Shown here: one piece after another, positions 8,755 to 61,600 of the stretch
How the letters are laid out: each line of letters begins with the position of its first letter
Position numbering within the stretch: position 1 is the first letter of the stretch
Source of the DNA: Geobacteraceae bacterium
Lineage (GTDB): Bacteria > Desulfobacterota > Desulfuromonadia > Geobacterales > Geobacteraceae
Assembly (NCBI GenBank): GCA_024281055.1
Contig: JAMXLF010000035.1
Span: forward strand, 62,001-126,000
Direction: 5' to 3'
DNA: 64,000 bases
The notes under the pieces: generated by a model
The model's database searches: none
The model's input: the letters and a program-made list of their open reading frames with translations, nothing else
Told to the model about the DNA's origin: nothing
Position numbers and translations under genes: made by a program

Positions 8755-11208
8755 CTAATCGTCATCGTGGTCATAACCAGGTCGGAATATCACGTTCCGA
8801 ACGACCGTACTGCTGTTGCCCGAATCATCCATAGCGGTAACGGTGATGGCGTAGAGCTTGGGATCGGTGAAGTTGAGCCGCTGCCTGAATTCGCCGTCGT
8901 CGACTTCGGGGTAGTAGGTTTTGCCGTTCATGGTGATCTTGACCCGTACATGCTCATGATCAACGACTTTGCCCCTGAGTACCAGGTAGGGGTACCTGGT
9001 GGTGATGTCCTGGCTGGGGTAAGTGACCGCAAGCGAGAGGTTGCTGGTGCTGCCGGCGGTGTAAGTGACCGTCCGTTTAGCGGTTGCGGTATTGCCGGCC
9101 AGATCCGTAGCATTGATGCTGATGGTGTTGACGCCTGCTACCAGGTAAACGGTGGCGCTGAAGGTGGTGCCGGAAATGGAAGCAGATTGTGGGGCGCCGC
9201 CATTGACGGTCACGCTGACCGTGGCGTTTTCGCTGATCGTACCACTTAGCGTTACGAACGACTGGGTAGAGGTGCTGTTGTCGGCAGGAGCGGAGACCGT
9301 AAGGACCGGGGCACTGGCATCGTAGGTAATGGTGCGGATATCGGTTTTCTGAGCTCCAGCGTTGTCGGTGGCGACGACCGTGATGGTGTTGGCCCCGGCC
9401 ACAAGAGTCAGGGCGGTGCTGAAAGAACCATCAGCGTTCATGGTGACAGCCTGGCCGTTGACGGTGAGAGCGGTCGCGCCGGTGGCGGTGCCGGTGACGT
9501 TGAGCGTACCCTTGTTGGTGTAGGAACCGTCGGCAAGAGCGGAAACGGCCAGGGTGAAGTTCGAGGAGGAGGCGACCGTAACGGTTACCGTGGCGCTCTT
9601 GGCGGCGGAGACGTTGCCCGCCGCATCCTTGGCCCAGGCATAGAAGGTATTGCTGCCGGCGACCGCGGTGACGCTCGTCGGGGCGGCGGCGGACCAGCCG
9701 GTGGCAGAAGCGGCCGGGGCTGTGGCGCTGGTGGTGATGAGGTAGCCCGTCACGGCCACGTTGTCGGTGGCGCTAAGAGAGCTGACCGGCACGGTGAGGC
9801 TCGTGGCGGTGGCCGGCAGGGTGAAGGCGCTCACGACCGGCGCGATGGTGTCGGGAAGCGTCACAACGACCGAGGCGCTCTTGCCGGCCGAGACGTTGCC
9901 CGCGGCGTCCTTGGCCCAGGCATAGAAGGTGTTGCTGCCGGCGACCGCGGTGACGCTGGCCGGTGCTGCGGTGGACCAGCCGGTGGCAGAAGCGGCCGGG
10001 GCGGTGGCGCTGGTGGTGATGAGGTAGCCCGTCACGGCAACGTTGTCGGTAGCAGCCAGGGAGCTGACCGGCACGGTCAGGCTGGTGGCAGTGGCCGGCA
10101 GGGTGAAGGTGCCAACAACCGGAGCGGTGGTGTCGGGAAGCGTTACCACGACCGTGGCGCTCTTGCCGGCGGATACGTTACCCGCGGCGTCCTTGGCGTA
10201 TGCATAGAAGGTGTTGCTGCCGGCGACCGCGGTCACGCTCGTCGGGGCTGCGGCAGACCAGCCGGTGGCAGAGGCTGCCGGCTTTGTAGCGCTGGTGGTG
10301 ATGATGTAACCCGTCACGGCGGTATTATCGGTGGCGCTGAGGGCGCTGACCGGCACGGTGAGGCTGGTGGCAGTGGCCGGCAGGGTGAAGGGGCCAACAA
10401 CCGGAGCGGTGGTGTCGGGAAGCGTTACCACGACCGTGGCGCTCTTGCCGGCGGAGACGTTGCCCGCGGCATCCTTGGCGTATGCGTAGAAGGTGTTGCT
10501 GCCGGCGACGGCGGTCACGCTCGTCGGGGCGGCGGCAGACCAGCCGGTGGCAGAGGCTGCCGGGGCAGTGGCGCTGGTGGTGATGATGTAACCTGTCACG
10601 GCGGTATTGTCGGTGGCGCTGAGGGCGCTGACCGGCACTGAGAGGCTGGTCGAGGTGGCAGGCAGGGTAAAGGCTCCCATGACCGGTGCGGCGGTGTCCG
10701 CAGGCGGGGCTGCAACGGCAACGGTAATGGTGACATTGACAGCTGCTTCGCCGTGGACATCACCGGTTCCGGTGCCGTCCTGGTTGCCGAAGTAGGCCAT
10801 CTTCCAGGTGTAGGTGCCTGCCGTTGCAGGCGCGGGAGCCGAGAGAATCGCAGGGAAGGTGGTAGAGCTCCCCATGCCGCTCTGGGTGCCGGTGGATCGT
10901 GCGATCTCGGCGCCGGACTGGTTGTAGAGACGAGCACCGATCCAACCGGTTCTGGTGCCTCCGGTCAGGGTCACGGTTACAGTTTCACCGGGTGCATAAG
11001 AGGTCTTGTCGGCAGTGGCTTTCAGGTTTGCATTGCCATGGTGATGACAACCGTTGCAAGTGGCGGCAACCGGGGCTGCATGGCAGTTAACACAGCCTCT
11101 GCTCGTGAAGTAGGTCGACTGTGCCTGGGCCTCGCTCCCCCAGAGCTGAAATGCTGTCAGTATCAGTGCAAAGATGAACAACATAGAAATTCTACTGCTA
11201 ATCCTCAT
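8755..11208 (-). CDS. Secreted two-heme c-type cytochrome with four near-identical adhesin-like repeats
   Basis: 817 aa from the ATG at 11208, chosen for its AAAGGAG site and the signal peptide that follows (cleavage expected near SEAQAQS). Two CxxCH heme motifs, CVNCH and CNGCH, lie within about 45 residues of the mature N-terminus. A predicted beta domain follows, then four 94-residue repeats (each DTTAPVV...TDNxAVTGY...SNTFYAYAKDAAGNVSAGKS). The C-terminal ~300 residues hold three Ig-like/glucodextranase-type segments of the DxxxNxxTVxxTA kind. The build suggests an outer-surface or extracellular heme protein displayed on a stalk. Two tandem GEMM-I riboswitches in its leader place it under cyclic dinucleotide control. 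Electron-transfer role is inferred. Confidence 0.85.
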   Translation of the reverse strand: MRISSRISMLFIFALILTAFQLWGSEAQAQSTYFTSRGCVNCHAAPVAATCNGCHHHGNANLKATADKTSYAPGETVTVTLTGGTRTGWIGARLYNQSGAEIARSTGTQSGMGSSTTFPAILSAPAPATAGTYTWKMAYFGNQDGTGTGDVHGEAAVNVTITVAVAAPPADTAAPVMGAFTLPATSTSLSVPVSALSATDNTAVTGYIITTSATAPAASATGWSAAAPTSVTAVAGSNTFYAYAKDAAGNVSAGKSATVVVTLPDTTAPVVGPFTLPATATSLTVPVSALSATDNTAVTGYIITTSATKPAASATGWSAAAPTSVTAVAGSNTFYAYAKDAAGNVSAGKSATVVVTLPDTTAPVVGTFTLPATATSLTVPVSSLAATDNVAVTGYLITTSATAPAASATGWSTAAPASVTAVAGSNTFYAWAKDAAGNVSAGKSASVVVTLPDTIAPVVSAFTLPATATSLTVPVSSLSATDNVAVTGYLITTSATAPAASATGWSAAAPTSVTAVAGSNTFYAWAKDAAGNVSAAKSATVTVTVASSSNFTLAVSALADGSYTNKGTLNVTGTATGATALTVNGQAVTMNADGSFSTALTLVAGANTITVVATDNAGAQKTDIRTITYDASAPVLTVSAPADNSTSTQSFVTLSGTISENATVSVTVNGGAPQSASISGTTFSATVYLVAGVNTISINATDLAGNTATAKRTVTYTAGSTSNLSLAVTYPSQDITTRYPYLVLRGKVVDHEHVRVKITMNGKTYYPEVDDGEFRQRLNFTDPKLYAITVTAMDDSGNSSTVVRNVIFRPGYDHDDD
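9576..10698 (-). repeat. Four tandem ~282-bp coding repeats
   Basis: Each unit encodes 94 residues; the same DNA string around the DTTAPVVG codons recurs at 282-bp spacing (for example near 10128 and 10410). The middle copies are nearly identical at DNA level, which implies recent expansion or gene conversion. Confidence 0.85.
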
Positions 11209-11342
11209 GGTAACTCCTTTCGTTGTTAGCCTGCTGCAGACCCCCCGTCGGTACTGCAGCATTCAATCGGTCGACGGTCCTAGACATTTCCTTCATTTCC
11301 TGAATATCTCCTCCTTTTCTAGTCCCGGCTTAAACGCCCTAT

Positions 11343-11460
11343 AAAAAAAGCCGGGGCCGGATATCGAGTGATATTTCGGCGACCCGGCTGTCTCGGTGAG
11401 ACCCTGTGGGCTTTCCGTCCCACCCTCGCGGATGGTTTAGTATTATCGTCTATCTACTGC
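11343..11460 (-). promoter_or_regulatory. GEMM-Ib riboswitch, gene-proximal copy, with terminator
   Basis: Read on the minus strand, the aptamer has the GEMM-I core: AATACTAAACC, a GCGA tetraloop-type hairpin (11438-11420), GTGGGACGGAAAGCC, the GGGTCTCACCGAGACAGCC arm and GCCGAAATATC. Compared with the c-di-GMP aptamer Vc2, the position equivalent to G20 is A and the G21-C46 pair is swapped to C-G, the changes found in Geobacter aptamers that bind 3',3'-cGAMP. The 3' end (11365-11343) has CCCGGCT followed by T7, which can pair with AGCCGGG inside the aptamer. Ligand binding should therefore disrupt the terminator (ON switch; inference). Confidence 0.88.
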
Positions 11461-11560
11461 TGCTTGGAACTTGGCGTTACATCTGCGAGCTTTTCAGCTT
11501 TTCTCCCGTCGCACGGTTACGCCCGCGGTGCGCAACCTTCGGTGGCCCGAAAAAAGGTAC

Positions 11561-11677
11561 AAAAAAACCGGGGCCGAATTGTCGGTGACATTTCGGCGAC
11601 CCGGCTGTCTCGGTGAGACCCTGTGGGCTTTCCGTCCCACCCTCGCGGATGGTTTAGTATTATCGTCTATCTACTGC
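11561..11677 (-). promoter_or_regulatory. GEMM-Ib riboswitch, promoter-proximal copy, with terminator
   Basis: The 88 bp at 11590-11677 are identical to 11373-11460 of the other copy; the spacing is 217 bp. The expression platform differs in sequence but keeps the logic: CGGCCCCGG plus T7 (11575-11561) can pair with CCGGG and GCCG of the aptamer. Two complete aptamer-terminator units in series mean RNA polymerase must pass two ligand-dependent terminators before reaching the cytochrome gene at 11208. Confidence 0.88.
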
Positions 11678-11710
11678 AGCTTTAAAAATGTAATCAATAC
11701 GTAGAATCCA

Positions 11711-11739
11711 ATTTAATTTAAAGTTAACCAAGCTGTCAA
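11711..11739 (-). promoter_or_regulatory. Promoter of the riboswitch leader
   Basis: TTGACA (11739-11734), 17-bp spacer, TTAAAT (11716-11711) on the minus strand, in an AT-rich stretch. The expected start near 11703 is about 26 nt before the first aptamer. Confidence 0.7.
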
Positions 11740-12411: not shown

Positions 12412-14790
12412 TCATTCCCACCCCATCCGCACGATCCCTGACGCCACGGGATACGGGTATTTCCGCACCAGTTCCGCCACCGGCAGGCCCCGGTCATCCT
12501 CGCGCATGAAGTGGACGAGGACAACCGCCGCCCAGTAGTCGTCGGCGTACCCGGTCCCCGCCAGCTGTACCGGCACCCCTGCCCCGTTGACGGTGTGGCA
12601 TGCCGCACAGGTCACCGGTCCGGCATACTTCCCGTCCGGACTGAACTGGAGCGCCTGCTCGTGGGATGTAATGTCAACCGTTTTGTCCGTTCCGTCGTAG
12701 CGTACCGGATAGAGGCCGTGAGCCGATTCGTGGCACGACTGGCAGGCGAGTACGCCGTGAGCCTTAGAGTACCTGAATAGCGAGTACTTGTTAGGCTGGT
12801 CGATGGGAAAGTACTGCCCTCCATTGCTTTCCACGAAGGGAGCCACGTGGCAATCCGCGCAGTGGGACTCGCCCGGAGAGAGCCACCAGTCGCCCCCGCC
12901 CAAGGCGGCTGCATACGAGATCAGCTCGCCGCCCAGCACGTTCCACGGGTAGCGGACCGTCTCCCCGTCTTTGCCCTTCGCAATGCGCAGGAGGTCCGCT
13001 GCCCGGTGATCGGCGTAGTAAGCGTGAAGCGGCTCGCCGGCGGCCGCCACCGTCGGGTCGGCAAAAAACTCCCGGAACCGTTTCCCGTCCCCCCCCGCCA
13101 CCACCCCGATCACTTCTTCGATCGACCGGTTGCGAAGCGTTTTCCCTTCCTGGGCTGCCGCGTCGCGCAGGTCGTCGGAGCGGTAAAGCTCGTGGCTCAG
13201 CTGGTTATGGCAGTTGGTACAGTAAAGCCCTCGTATCGTCCCGACAGGTTTACCCAGCTCATCCACCCTGCTCACATTCGCGAGGTACCACCGGCCGATG
13301 GCGTTCAGGAAAAACGGCGGCTGCACATGGGGATTGGAATGGGCGTCACGCCGCAGGAAACAGCCTCCTCCCGCGCTCCGCAGGTCGGTATCGCTGAAGC
13401 GGGGGTTGCCGTTGGCATCGGTGACGGCAAAGGGGTTCGCAGCCGGATCATTCATCTCGGCGCTCTGCCAGTGGGAGGGATGGCAGGTCTGGCAGCTCTG
13501 GGTCCGTCCCGCCTTGTCGGGCATGGGGACGAAGCGGGCGTGGACCGAATGGACCGCCTCGGTCAGGGGCTTCCCCCTGGCAGGAGGATAGCCGGTCGTG
13601 CCAGGGCGCGGTGTCTGGAGGTTCCCGGACATGTTGTCGCCGTGGCAGTCGGCGCAGTTCACCGACCCTACGTAGCCGAGCCTGTTCGACGCAGCATCAG
13701 GGTTGTAGCTCCGCAGAAACTTTGTACCGTGGTGGCGGTCGTGGAGTTCGAGGATGTCGATGGTGGTCGCCGAAAGTCGCGCCATGTATTCGCTCACGTC
13801 AGGGTAATTCTTCTTCCAGTAGGCATACTCCCGGTCGAAGAGCCCGAGTCCCTCCTGGCGCGAGCGCCGAGCCGCCTTTCCGCCGCCCGAGTGGCAAATG
13901 GAGCAACTGGCGATGTCCACCGGGTCGGTGCCGAAGAACTCGACGTTCTTTCCCCGAGCGGTCAGGGGCCGCCCCTGGCCGTCCAGCCTGACCACTGCGT
14001 ACTGGTACGGCTGAAAATCCCGCTCCGTGACCGTCCGGATCGACCCCTTGCGCCTGCTGTCGTTGAACGCCGTGAGCGGCAGCCCCAGCGCGTCCCAGAG
14101 GTACGAAGCGGTGAGGGTGAGAGGGACATCGGTCAGCCAGGGGAGCATGGTATCAGTGAAGACGATGTTCCCCCCCTTGCCGGAGGAGTATTCCATAGTT
14201 CCACCCGCGACGATCTTACCGGACGGTCCGGAATCGACGTTCACCGGAATTTCCCGGCCGATGCGCTTGCGCTCGCCCTTCTGCGGGGCGTACGGCAGGG
14301 TACCGGCCAGGTCCCGGTAGATGAAGAGGTGGGTCCAGACGTAGTTTGCCATATTGTCGCCAGGATGGTTCATCGTCCCGCTGCCATCCACGTCCTTGGC
14401 GACCTGCCAGTATTTCATCTTGTTCCCTTCGCTGTAGCTGTTGTCCCTGAGGGAATAGTGCAGGCTCACCCCGTCCGCCGGCGCCAGAAGCCGGGGGACG
14501 GCGCCGTTTGTGCCCGTTCGAACCGCCTGGGCCTGGATGCTGTTGTAGGGGGGGATGATGCAGCAGTAGGAGATGTCGAAGCCGACGCAGTGCATGCCGA
14601 GTTCATAGTTGATGAAGATGGCATAAGGATCGCGCGGGTCGTAGGTCATGCCCTTCCCTTCAGCGGTTTTCTGGAGGGTAAGGTCAAAGGGTGGACGCGG
14701 GTCGTAGCCCTTTTCGGCCGCCGCGAACAGCGGGAGAAAGATGACAGAGATGAGCAGGCAGGCTACGCAGAGAACGCTGGGACGTTTCAT
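12412..14790 (-). CDS. Seven-heme c-type cytochrome, exported
   Basis: 792 aa. The ATG at 14790 is preferred over 14811 because GGAGG lies just upstream and the signal peptide (KRPSVLCVACLLISVIF) begins there. Seven CxxCH motifs are present (CSICH, CADCH, CQTCH, CTNCH, CADCH, CQSCH, CAACH), mostly in the C-terminal half; the N-terminal ~280 residues are heme-free. Additional Cys-rich text near residue 75 (YCC) is not a heme site. It is likely periplasmic or outer-surface and part of extracellular electron transfer, as is usual for Geobacter multiheme proteins. Partner and acceptor are unknown. Confidence 0.85.
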   Translation of the reverse strand: MKRPSVLCVACLLISVIFLPLFAAAEKGYDPRPPFDLTLQKTAEGKGMTYDPRDPYAIFINYELGMHCVGFDISYCCIIPPYNSIQAQAVRTGTNGAVPRLLAPADGVSLHYSLRDNSYSEGNKMKYWQVAKDVDGSGTMNHPGDNMANYVWTHLFIYRDLAGTLPYAPQKGERKRIGREIPVNVDSGPSGKIVAGGTMEYSSGKGGNIVFTDTMLPWLTDVPLTLTASYLWDALGLPLTAFNDSRRKGSIRTVTERDFQPYQYAVVRLDGQGRPLTARGKNVEFFGTDPVDIASCSICHSGGGKAARRSRQEGLGLFDREYAYWKKNYPDVSEYMARLSATTIDILELHDRHHGTKFLRSYNPDAASNRLGYVGSVNCADCHGDNMSGNLQTPRPGTTGYPPARGKPLTEAVHSVHARFVPMPDKAGRTQSCQTCHPSHWQSAEMNDPAANPFAVTDANGNPRFSDTDLRSAGGGCFLRRDAHSNPHVQPPFFLNAIGRWYLANVSRVDELGKPVGTIRGLYCTNCHNQLSHELYRSDDLRDAAAQEGKTLRNRSIEEVIGVVAGGDGKRFREFFADPTVAAAGEPLHAYYADHRAADLLRIAKGKDGETVRYPWNVLGGELISYAAALGGGDWWLSPGESHCADCHVAPFVESNGGQYFPIDQPNKYSLFRYSKAHGVLACQSCHESAHGLYPVRYDGTDKTVDITSHEQALQFSPDGKYAGPVTCAACHTVNGAGVPVQLAGTGYADDYWAAVVLVHFMREDDRGLPVAELVRKYPYPVASGIVRMGWE

Positions 14791-14852
14791 GGCATCGGCC
14801 TCCGGCACCATGGAACGTTACAGCAAGAAAATCGGCCCATGATGCACCGTCA

Positions 14853-51121: not shown

Positions 51122-51262
51122 CAAGCTGCTCTCACAGCGAGTCGTAGGCGGACCCCGCACCCGAAAGTTTTTGCGGTATTTTTGTATCTACAGTTTGCCG
51201 GGTGTAGGGGAAATACAACACCGCAAGGGAAATACCCTGCTGCGCCTACGAGCAGTGAGAGC
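51122..51262 (+). ncRNA. C4-like antisense RNA and its target sites
   Basis: Two upstream segments are complementary in order to two segments just before the antirepressor: 51128-51135 (gctctcac) with 51255-51262, and 51142-51150 (tcgtaggcg) with 51243-51251. Inner pairs 51171-51177/51220-51226 and 51158-51163/51199-51204 add structure. This a', b' / a, b layout upstream of an ant gene is how the C4 RNA of phages P1 and P7 blocks ant translation. The RNA boundaries are not visible. Confidence 0.7.
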
Positions 51263-51312
51263 GCCCGGCATCCTCAATGAGGGGCCATCTCAAAATCGTA
51301 GGAGGTAGTACC

Positions 51313-58600: not shown

Positions 58601-61600
58601 ATAAGGGCCTTGTACGCCTCCCGCAGTTCCGGCCGCAGCTGCGACTTGTAGCTCGCGCCATGGCTCAGGTAATCGTCGGGACCGCGGGTCTGATAGACCT
58701 GATCACCACGTTTGTTCGCCACCTTCTCGTTCGGCGCCTTGGAGTCGAGGCGGCCGAGGTAGTGGTCGAGGGCATGGAACCACTCATGGGCAAGCGAGCC
58801 GGCACCCTTCATCTTGGTAAGGTTAATGACCCCGTAATCTCGTTCATAATGAGCCTTGGCCCCGGAAAGCCCCTGACCTCTCGCCCCGAAGGCGATGGCC
58901 AACTCGCCGTTCAGCATCAGGGCCTTAGGCGGGACGTTCAACACCTCCGCCAGGTCGAGCAGCCCATCATAGGCATGGTTCATCACCTGTTGCCGCTCTT
59001 CCTGGTTGTTCCAGTTGCCGAACTCGATCCCCCTTGGCGCGAACGTATCCATGAACATCTGCGCCGTGGCGGGTTCGGTTCGCCTTTCGGCTCCCGTGCG
59101 CACGGCGATCTCCGGCACCGGCAGGATCTCCTCACCGAAGGAGGTTTTCGCCTCCAGAAGATTCACGGCGTTCTCCGCCATATAACGCAGGGCGTCCTCA
59201 CGCGCCGGGAAACTCCGTTCCACCACCTTGAGGCGCTTGCGTTCGCCGACGCGCTTGTAGATCGACCAGGTATTGTCGGGGTTCAGCACCGCCTGGTGCG
59301 TCATCGCCACGGCGTAGACCGGGATGGCCGCTTTTGCCTCCTCCTCCGAAGCAAAGGTTTGGCCGGTGCCGGAAAAGGAAAGCCGTCCACCCTTGGTGAT
59401 GATCCCGAACCGGCCTGGCGACTTGATGCTGTGCGCCACGATGAAGCGCTTCTGCCACGCCGGGGCACCGTCATCCTTCTTGGATTTCGGTCCGGTACCG
59501 GTACCACGGGACGCGGTATCCTTGCGCGCCCCGCCGATCTTCTCGCCGAAATCTTCGATCTTCCCGGCGGGAGAGGAGGCCGTTTCCGGCCCCTCTGCGG
59601 TGGCGGGTTCGCTTGCGGGAGTGGTGGCGGGTGTATGTTCATCGGCCGCAGGGCCGTTGCTTTCTCCGTCTGAAGACGCAGAAAGGGGAGAGTCCTGTAC
59701 GGACCTCTCCCCTTCCGATGATTCGGTTTTTCTCTTGCTCGGTTCTACTTCTGCGGTGTGCCCAGCCGAATGTCCACTATCGGGCCGTGCTTCGCCGTGA
59801 ATTCCTGCAACGACGCTATAAGGTCGGCCTCCCCTTTCAGGGTTACGGGTTCCAGCCGCAACCTGCTCGGCTCGGCTGGCGTTGAGCCGCTGGTCGGCGG
59901 AGTTGAAGTCCTGGTCGATTCCATAGTCGAGCCTCCATCCGGTGTATGGGATTATTGTACCATCCTCACCGTCGATTTCAATGGTTTGTTTCGCCACCGC
60001 CTCGGCCAGGCGCTCCAGGGCCTTCTCGGCCGTGGCCGGGTCGTCAAAGATCGTGGCGAACTCGTCGCCTCCCTTGCGGAATATCTTGATTCCGAGCGGT
60101 TCCGCGGCATCGGCGATAAGACGCAGCAGCTTGTCGCCATAAACATGGCCAAACGTGTCATTGATCCACTTAAGTCCCGATATGTCCATGCTCGCCACGG
60201 CATTGCCGGTCGGCATCATTTTCTCAGCCAGTTGCCATCCCCGGGCGTTATACGTATTGGTCAGTTCGTCATGAAAGGCAAGGCGCAACACCCCGTCGAT
60301 ATCTTTCTTGCGGACCAGATCATCAACCTGGCGTCGCATCTCCTCATCGACTCGGCGAACGTGGGACTGGCTTACCTCACTGGAAGCACCGGCGGCCACA
60401 CCACCGGCTGGTACGGCTCCGTCATCTTGTGTCCGCACGTCGGACACTTCTTCTTGTCCTTTGCCACCTTCTTGCTGCATTTCGGGCACTTCATCGGTAA
60501 CCCCCTGTGAATGGTGAATGGTGAATGGTGAATCGGCAAACGCCTTTTTTTGGTTACCATTAGATAACCATTCCTTGAGTCCTTCGGGCGTGGTTTCGGT
60601 GAGGGCGCCTATCCGGTCGGGGCCGCTCTCGTCGTAATTGGCGAGATACCCCAGCCGGGCATCCACCGGCGTGTCCCATCCGATAAGGATTTTATGTTCA
60701 TCGAAGCGGCCCGTCTTAATGTTCTTCTGGTCCACCACGTATACGCGCCGGCTCTCCGGATCAGGACCGACAAAGACGTCGAGATGATCCTTGTCATTCC
60801 CTCGTGGCGCTTTTCCTTGACTCGTCTCGACAATATAACCATAATGGTTTCGCAGTTCGGTTTCCCACGGTCTGCCGTTTTCGTTCGTACCACGCCGTAC
60901 ACTGCCTTGCGGGTTCTCAATCCGTATGTGCAGACCGTTCAGCCAGAAATCGCCTTTCTTGTAATTTCCAGCATGTTTCTGGGCCTCAGTGGGTTCCGGC
61001 AGATCATTTCTTGGGGAGGTTGCTGCGTCATGAGCGGCGCTGTCGATGTGGTGTGCCAATTCTGTGGAAAGAGTTTCCGACGATACCGGTCCCAAATTAA
61101 GGCCAAGATCTTTCGTTCCAACGCCTGTCGTGTCGCCGCTACTCGCCCCGACATCACCTGCTTTGTTTGCGGCGCTCCCATTAGCCGCCCGAGCCACCTC
61201 AAGCGAACTGACAGGTGTTTCTGCGATCAAGTCTGCTATAGTCGCTATCGAACGGCCCAATCTCTCACGCGTCGCAGGATCAGTAAGAGCGGATACGTTT
61301 ACATCTGGCGAGACGGCAAGGAGGTTCTTGAGCACCGCTGGGTTGTCTCTCAGCATCTCGGCAGAGACCTTTTGCCCGGTGAGCATATTCACCATATCAA
61401 TCACGTCCGGACCGACAACCGAATCGAGAATCTTCGGATCATTGGCCCGAGCGAGCATTGCGGCAAGCACCATCCTTTGACTTGGGATGCCAAGCGCGCC
61501 GAAGCCCTTGCTGCGGAGGGTCTCAACGTCAAGGAGATCGCCGAGGCGCTTAACGTCCCTCCCCCCACCCTCTACGACTATTTTCGAAGGCATAACATAG

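Follow-up and report, generated by a model that had tools for sequence, protein, structure and literature searches.

Why should one gene be preceded by two copies of the same riboswitch, and do the two act one after the other on a single transcript? The question is raised by a leader of a Geobacteraceae bacterium that lies on the minus strand of the 64,000-nucleotide stretch of DNA analysed here (the window), in which positions 11373–11460 and 11590–11677 are the same over 88 nt at an offset of 217, as direct sequence comparison confirmed for the tandem, near-identical aptamers claimed by an earlier sequence-only reading. We conclude with high confidence that in this leader one cGAMP-type (GEMM-Ib) transcriptional ON riboswitch is present twice, in series, on the basis of the observed sequence of the units, their pocket residues, paired terminators, order and conservation.

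Two complete aptamer–terminator units

The exact repeat belongs to a wider block of 122 nt (93% identity, 9 mismatches), and each copy contains a 77-nt aptamer that shows no sequence difference from the other (Table 1). Both copies match the Rfam covariance model RF01051 (c-di-GMP-I) on the minus strand with 41.9 bits each (E 8e-5), compared to a gathering cut-off of 35 bits, so that the scan suggested earlier for detecting loss of the core in either copy found both above threshold; these matches, taken on their own, are well beyond chance. Both aptamers also reach 82.3 bits against a model derived from 21 window-genome aptamers, a score that is not independent because the two window copies are among those 21. 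In a model-fitted alignment of 42 distinct rows, 97.8% of the cells in the aptamer helices are paired, and double-sided changes number 28 vs 1.9 in shuffles.

Table 1. Elements of the tandem leader and its gene, in order of transcription (window coordinates).
Feature	Position	Strand	Basis
Promoter-like site TTGACA-18-TAAATT before unit 1	11710..11739	-	10/12 consensus matches
First aptamer, GEMM-I, A20 and C21:G46	11592..11668	-	RF01051 41.9 bits; model from window-genome aptamers (R1) 82.3 bits; pocket read
First intrinsic terminator, T7; 5′ arm formed by the 3′ strand of the first aptamer	11561..11605	-	fold −24.0 kcal/mol
109-nt spacer, terminator 1 to aptamer 2, without promoter-like site	11452..11560	-	consensus scan
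Second aptamer, same sequence as the first	11375..11451	-	RF01051; R1 model; pocket read
Second intrinsic terminator, T7; 5′ arm formed by the 3′ strand of the second aptamer	11343..11389	-	fold −22.5 kcal/mol
Ribosome-binding site AAAGGAG before ATG at 11208	11214..11220	-	sequence
Regulated gene, 817-aa secreted protein, two CXXCH haem motifs followed by Ig-like repeats	8755..11208	-	translation; Pfam

The proposal that each aptamer has its own competing T-run terminator is supported by both folding and comparison. In each window unit the 5′ arm of the hairpin lies within the last 16 nt of the aptamer, with 13 stem pairs of terminator 1 and 11 of terminator 2 having their 5′ base inside the respective aptamer in the fold; the two copies thus share the layout of a transcriptional ON switch, in which the terminator stem uses an aptamer strand and a T run follows. 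A T-run hairpin in which at least 10 pairs involve the aptamer's last 16 nt is also present in 115/116 related units with a C21-U22 pocket core. Since a generic terminator scan of the window detected neither hairpin, the assignment relies on the folds and on these relatives. The two terminators differ at 8 positions, with the strong hairpin and T7 kept in both, and the differences in the upper stem include paired changes (GUC:GAC vs AUC:GAU). The idea that they set different thresholds was not borne out, the stems being only 1.5 kcal/mol apart and neither copy being consistently stronger in orthologous doublets. In the unconstrained minimum free energy fold of the leader the terminators form and the full aptamer is absent, as would be expected without ligand; this fold does not prove switching. 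Elsewhere, the second unit of an orthologous doublet (L122 1156–1232) lacks the T run, and its gate may be constantly open.

The second terminator is separated by 134 nt from the AAAGGAG that precedes the ATG, downstream of which the repeat-rich surface cytochrome expected from the sequence was recovered as a c-type cytochrome-like protein, whose CXXCH motifs lie near the N terminus and whose domains match Pfam Glucodextran_B and Big_13. As the next gene in the window, encoding DAHP synthase, lies on the opposite strand, the regulated gene is probably transcribed alone. Upstream of the leader and on the same strand, positions 12412–14811 (−) carry a multihaem cytochrome gene with an MtrC/MtrF-like domain and Cytochrome_C7; at 51196–51278 (+), the window also contains a match to sRNA-Xcc1 (RF02221) with 53.7 bits vs a cut-off of 53.

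Ligand and order of the units

Both copies read ACT/GGA at positions 20–22 and 45–47, which gives A20 and a C21:G46 pair and places them in GEMM-Ib, the subclass marked by A at position 20. This is the residue that sets cGAMP binders apart (PMC6456294, PMC9481103), and an A20G change switches such a GEMM-Ib aptamer to c-di-GMP (PMC6456294). The GEMM-Ib assignment made earlier thus holds in that both copies have A20 and C21:G46, but its appeal to the swapped 21:46 pair does not: among the sampled aptamers the swap also occurs with G20, and A20 also with G21:C46, so that the pair alone is not diagnostic of cGAMP. From the pocket residues, cGAMP is the predicted ligand of the window aptamers. The window genome also has a GEMM-Ib-like aptamer with a natural G at position 20 (L071 2511–2587, −). 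Among its 26 GGDEF matches, two (L084 and L090) have GHxxGS replacing GHxxGD, which we take, by analogy with PleD and GacA, to be a Hypr-type change; from this one motif, both are putative Hypr cGAMP synthases. A weak partial GGDEF match (42.5 bits, profile 1–118) is located at window positions 59962–60279 (−), inside an open frame of 3840 codons.

Two other accounts of how the leader works have to be weighed. The aptamers might respond to c-di-GMP, alone or together with cGAMP, instead of chiefly to cGAMP, considering that the family model itself is c-di-GMP-I and that the Geobacter GEMM riboswitch of omcST is sensitive to both (PMC6456294); with the cGAMP-distinguishing A20 present in both copies (PMC6456294, PMC9481103), we regard this as unlikely. 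Alternatively, the units would not be in series, a second promoter between them letting the second act alone, and TTGACT-type sequences are indeed found in the spacers of two other unit pairs, L068 and L070, of the window genome (spacing 290 and 272). However, a consensus scan for promoters of the main sigma factor found no promoter-like match between the window copies, and over 36 neighbouring-unit pairs a site of at least 9/12 precedes unit 1 in 11 and unit 2 in 1; the best scores before the two units differ with a Wilcoxon P of 0.0008, which is approximate, as triples contribute overlapping pairs to the 36 and several of the leaders are related. A second promoter is thus quite improbable, and the earlier view of one promoter for both units is supported: by sequence, two complete aptamer–terminator units follow each other in series, and the consensus scan speaks for a single promoter. 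A conserved spacer element was also sought, and the window spacer was found to be without the hairpin or SD-like motifs of some relatives and to have a fold that is not unusual (z −0.25). In the spacers of L033, L041 and L045, an SD-like AAAGGAG is followed by a possible 8-codon frame and by conserved-looking hairpins.

Conservation and concerted evolution of the doublet

Comparison of the leader in related genomes, proposed with the original reading, showed that the doublet is conserved. When the haem and Ig region at the N terminus was aligned, 46 relatives in named genomes emerged and, with duplicate records set aside, the doublet was found before at least 18 loci of the haem and Ig-repeat family across Geobacterales, including those of Geomobilimonas luticola, several Geomonas, Geobacter sp. 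AOG1 and a paralogue in the window genome. Family relatives with one unit only (L113, L117, L119, L132, L138, L140 and L143) indicate that a second gate can be dispensed with. Between partner aptamers the mean identity is 94.1%, compared to 88.8% for same-position copies and 88.7% for first-vs-second copies of different loci, and none of 20,000 random re-pairings gave a mean as high; kinship of the loci is uncorrected in these values, and would raise those between loci but not those within. This excess of similarity within loci means that partner aptamers undergo concerted evolution; it is weaker in the terminator segment (77.1% within loci vs 72.9% and 71.8% between). Within the window genome, the two window copies are the closest pair among 26 aligned aptamers of the type, followed by a pair at 98.7% (L065). 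The most probable cause of this homogenisation is gene conversion or repeated re-duplication.

The similarity of the copies also bears on whether only one is functional, the other being a passive remnant of recent duplication. The 88-nt identity is what a fresh duplication would leave, and some relatives lack the second copy; yet the spread of the doublet over the family makes the two units old, the terminators have diverged by paired changes while both remain strong hairpins with T7, and similarity ends sharply at the limits of the 122-nt block, excluding the spacer. We consider a remnant very improbable, and a recent duplication of the whole unit was also dismissed, given an unduplicated spacer and the age of the doublet. 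The combination of concerted partner aptamers with two intact-looking terminators argues that selection keeps both gates, most plausibly so that the gene is held off at low cGAMP.

Serial gates of one and possibly two messengers

The ligand cGAMP, the read-through behaviour and the promoter are the inferred parts of the explanation that we favour for the doublet. Transcription would begin at one promoter upstream of copy 1. If ligand is missing, each aptamer would give up its 3′ strand to pairing with the strand that follows, and the terminator would form; if ligand is bound, the aptamer would retain its 3′ strand and the polymerase would read through, the gene being made only if both terminators are avoided on one transcript. 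Output would then approximate the product of two identical read-through probabilities: the basal level would drop strongly, the response would sharpen modestly, and the EC50 would lie at about 2–2.4 times the single-gate midpoint. When two independent identical gates are modelled (output equal to single read-through squared), leak falls from 0.05 to 0.0025, or from 0.10 to 0.01; the 10–90% span narrows from 81-fold to 40–51-fold, a roughly twofold steepening, and half-maximal output requires 2.0 to 2.4 times the concentration. A lower basal level is thus the main effect that the model predicts. The steeper response anticipated by the sequence-only reading is right in direction but modest, suppression of leak being larger, and its two-gate AND switch stands as two gates in series but, with one ligand, is not a two-input AND; same-ligand gates in series are termed pseudo-cooperative in the literature.

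Tandem GEMM-Ib and c-di-GMP-I leaders have been described, so that this kind of arrangement is already known. Geobacter sulfurreducens has several tandem GEMM-Ib leaders, and upon deletion of its cGAMP synthase gene gacA no RNA was detectable by RNA-seq by the second tandem riboswitch before GSU2885 (PMC6456294). A survey of c-di-GMP-I riboswitches lists 347 doublets and 12 triplets (PMC9481103), tandem c-di-GMP riboswitches are enriched in Thermodesulfobacteriota (PMC12452182), and the triple tandem Bc3-5 of Bacillus thuringiensis was measured to respond more stringently and digitally than single units or doublets (PMC4759541). In G. metallireducens, the cGAMP riboswitch of pilM is of the ON type and folds either as aptamer or as terminator (PMC9262584). 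Like the GSU2885/omcAHG leaders of G. sulfurreducens (PMC6456294), the window leader has a pair of cGAMP-type aptamers arranged in series ahead of a gene for a surface cytochrome, but the gene is another one, the aptamers are the same in sequence, and the evidence is that of the sequence. With the surveyed c-di-GMP-I tandems and Bc3-5 it shares complete same-class units of the ON type, each with its own terminator, whereas the predicted ligand (cGAMP instead of c-di-GMP), the gene and the phylum differ. The opposition of aptamer and terminator is that of the pilM ON switch, which is presented as a single riboswitch, unlike the two in series found here.

Within the window genome, 41 RF01051 matches include 5 tandem arrays (4 doublets and 1 triple), and five relatives searched whole have 11 to 20 matches with 0 to 3 close pairs each. 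The sampled loci contain 33 tandem arrays (30 doublets, 2 triples and 1 run of four), a count rather than a frequency, as many loci were chosen for resemblance to the whole tandem leader. At L037 1355–2069, four GEMM units stand in a row, the second and third identical, the first 97% and the fourth degenerate and c-di-GMP-like (26 bits).

Leaders found in nine genomes, which belong to several genera, have one to three cGAMP-type terminator units 160–258 nt before a c-di-GMP-type aptamer (L158/L069, L164/L101, L159, L160, L161, L162, L163 and L165, with L037 as a degenerate case; L069 1542–2111 is G000 C26:76341–76910). This last aptamer has no T-run terminator and a ribosome-binding site close by, and in most of these mixed leaders a stretch 3′ of it is complementary to the SD, as in L162 (AGTACCTC with GAGGTACT) and L158 (GTACCTTCTTG with CAAGGAGGTAC), single cases being mostly within shuffles (P 0.003 to 0.6) and the start of L161 having been wrongly picked. 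The following genes, where read, encode a secreted FN3-like domain at their start. In G. sulfurreducens after long-term evolution, a GEMM riboswitch lying before KN400_1971, a gene for an FN3 surface protein, is reported to be mutated (PMC13194489). Mixed leaders of this type, whose cGAMP/c-di-GMP pair is absent from the table of PMC9481103, are candidate cGAMP-AND-c-di-GMP gates that would act on both transcription and translation. In addition, doublets with A20 in the first copy, G20 in the second and terminators in both are found at L048 1533–1802 (−), before an ortholog of the window gene, and at L105 1626–1889 (−), before another gene. The former, in a genome (G017) that comparison with its named orthologs suggests to be a Geomonas, may be a one-messenger gate turned into a two-messenger gate and provides a natural comparison for the window leader.

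In summary, the window doublet is a further, conserved example of cGAMP switches arranged in series, here before genes of a family of haem-bearing surface proteins. More tentatively, as a possibility to which we give somewhat less than even weight, the serial GEMM leaders of Geobacterales may be a modular set of gates, with homogenisation acting on the aptamers of each genome and with the option of switching a single unit to the other messenger, either by A20G in the second copy or by a c-di-GMP-type translational aptamer placed after cGAMP-type terminators. True two-messenger AND gates would result from such a switch, and the window doublet would be the one-messenger form of the set.
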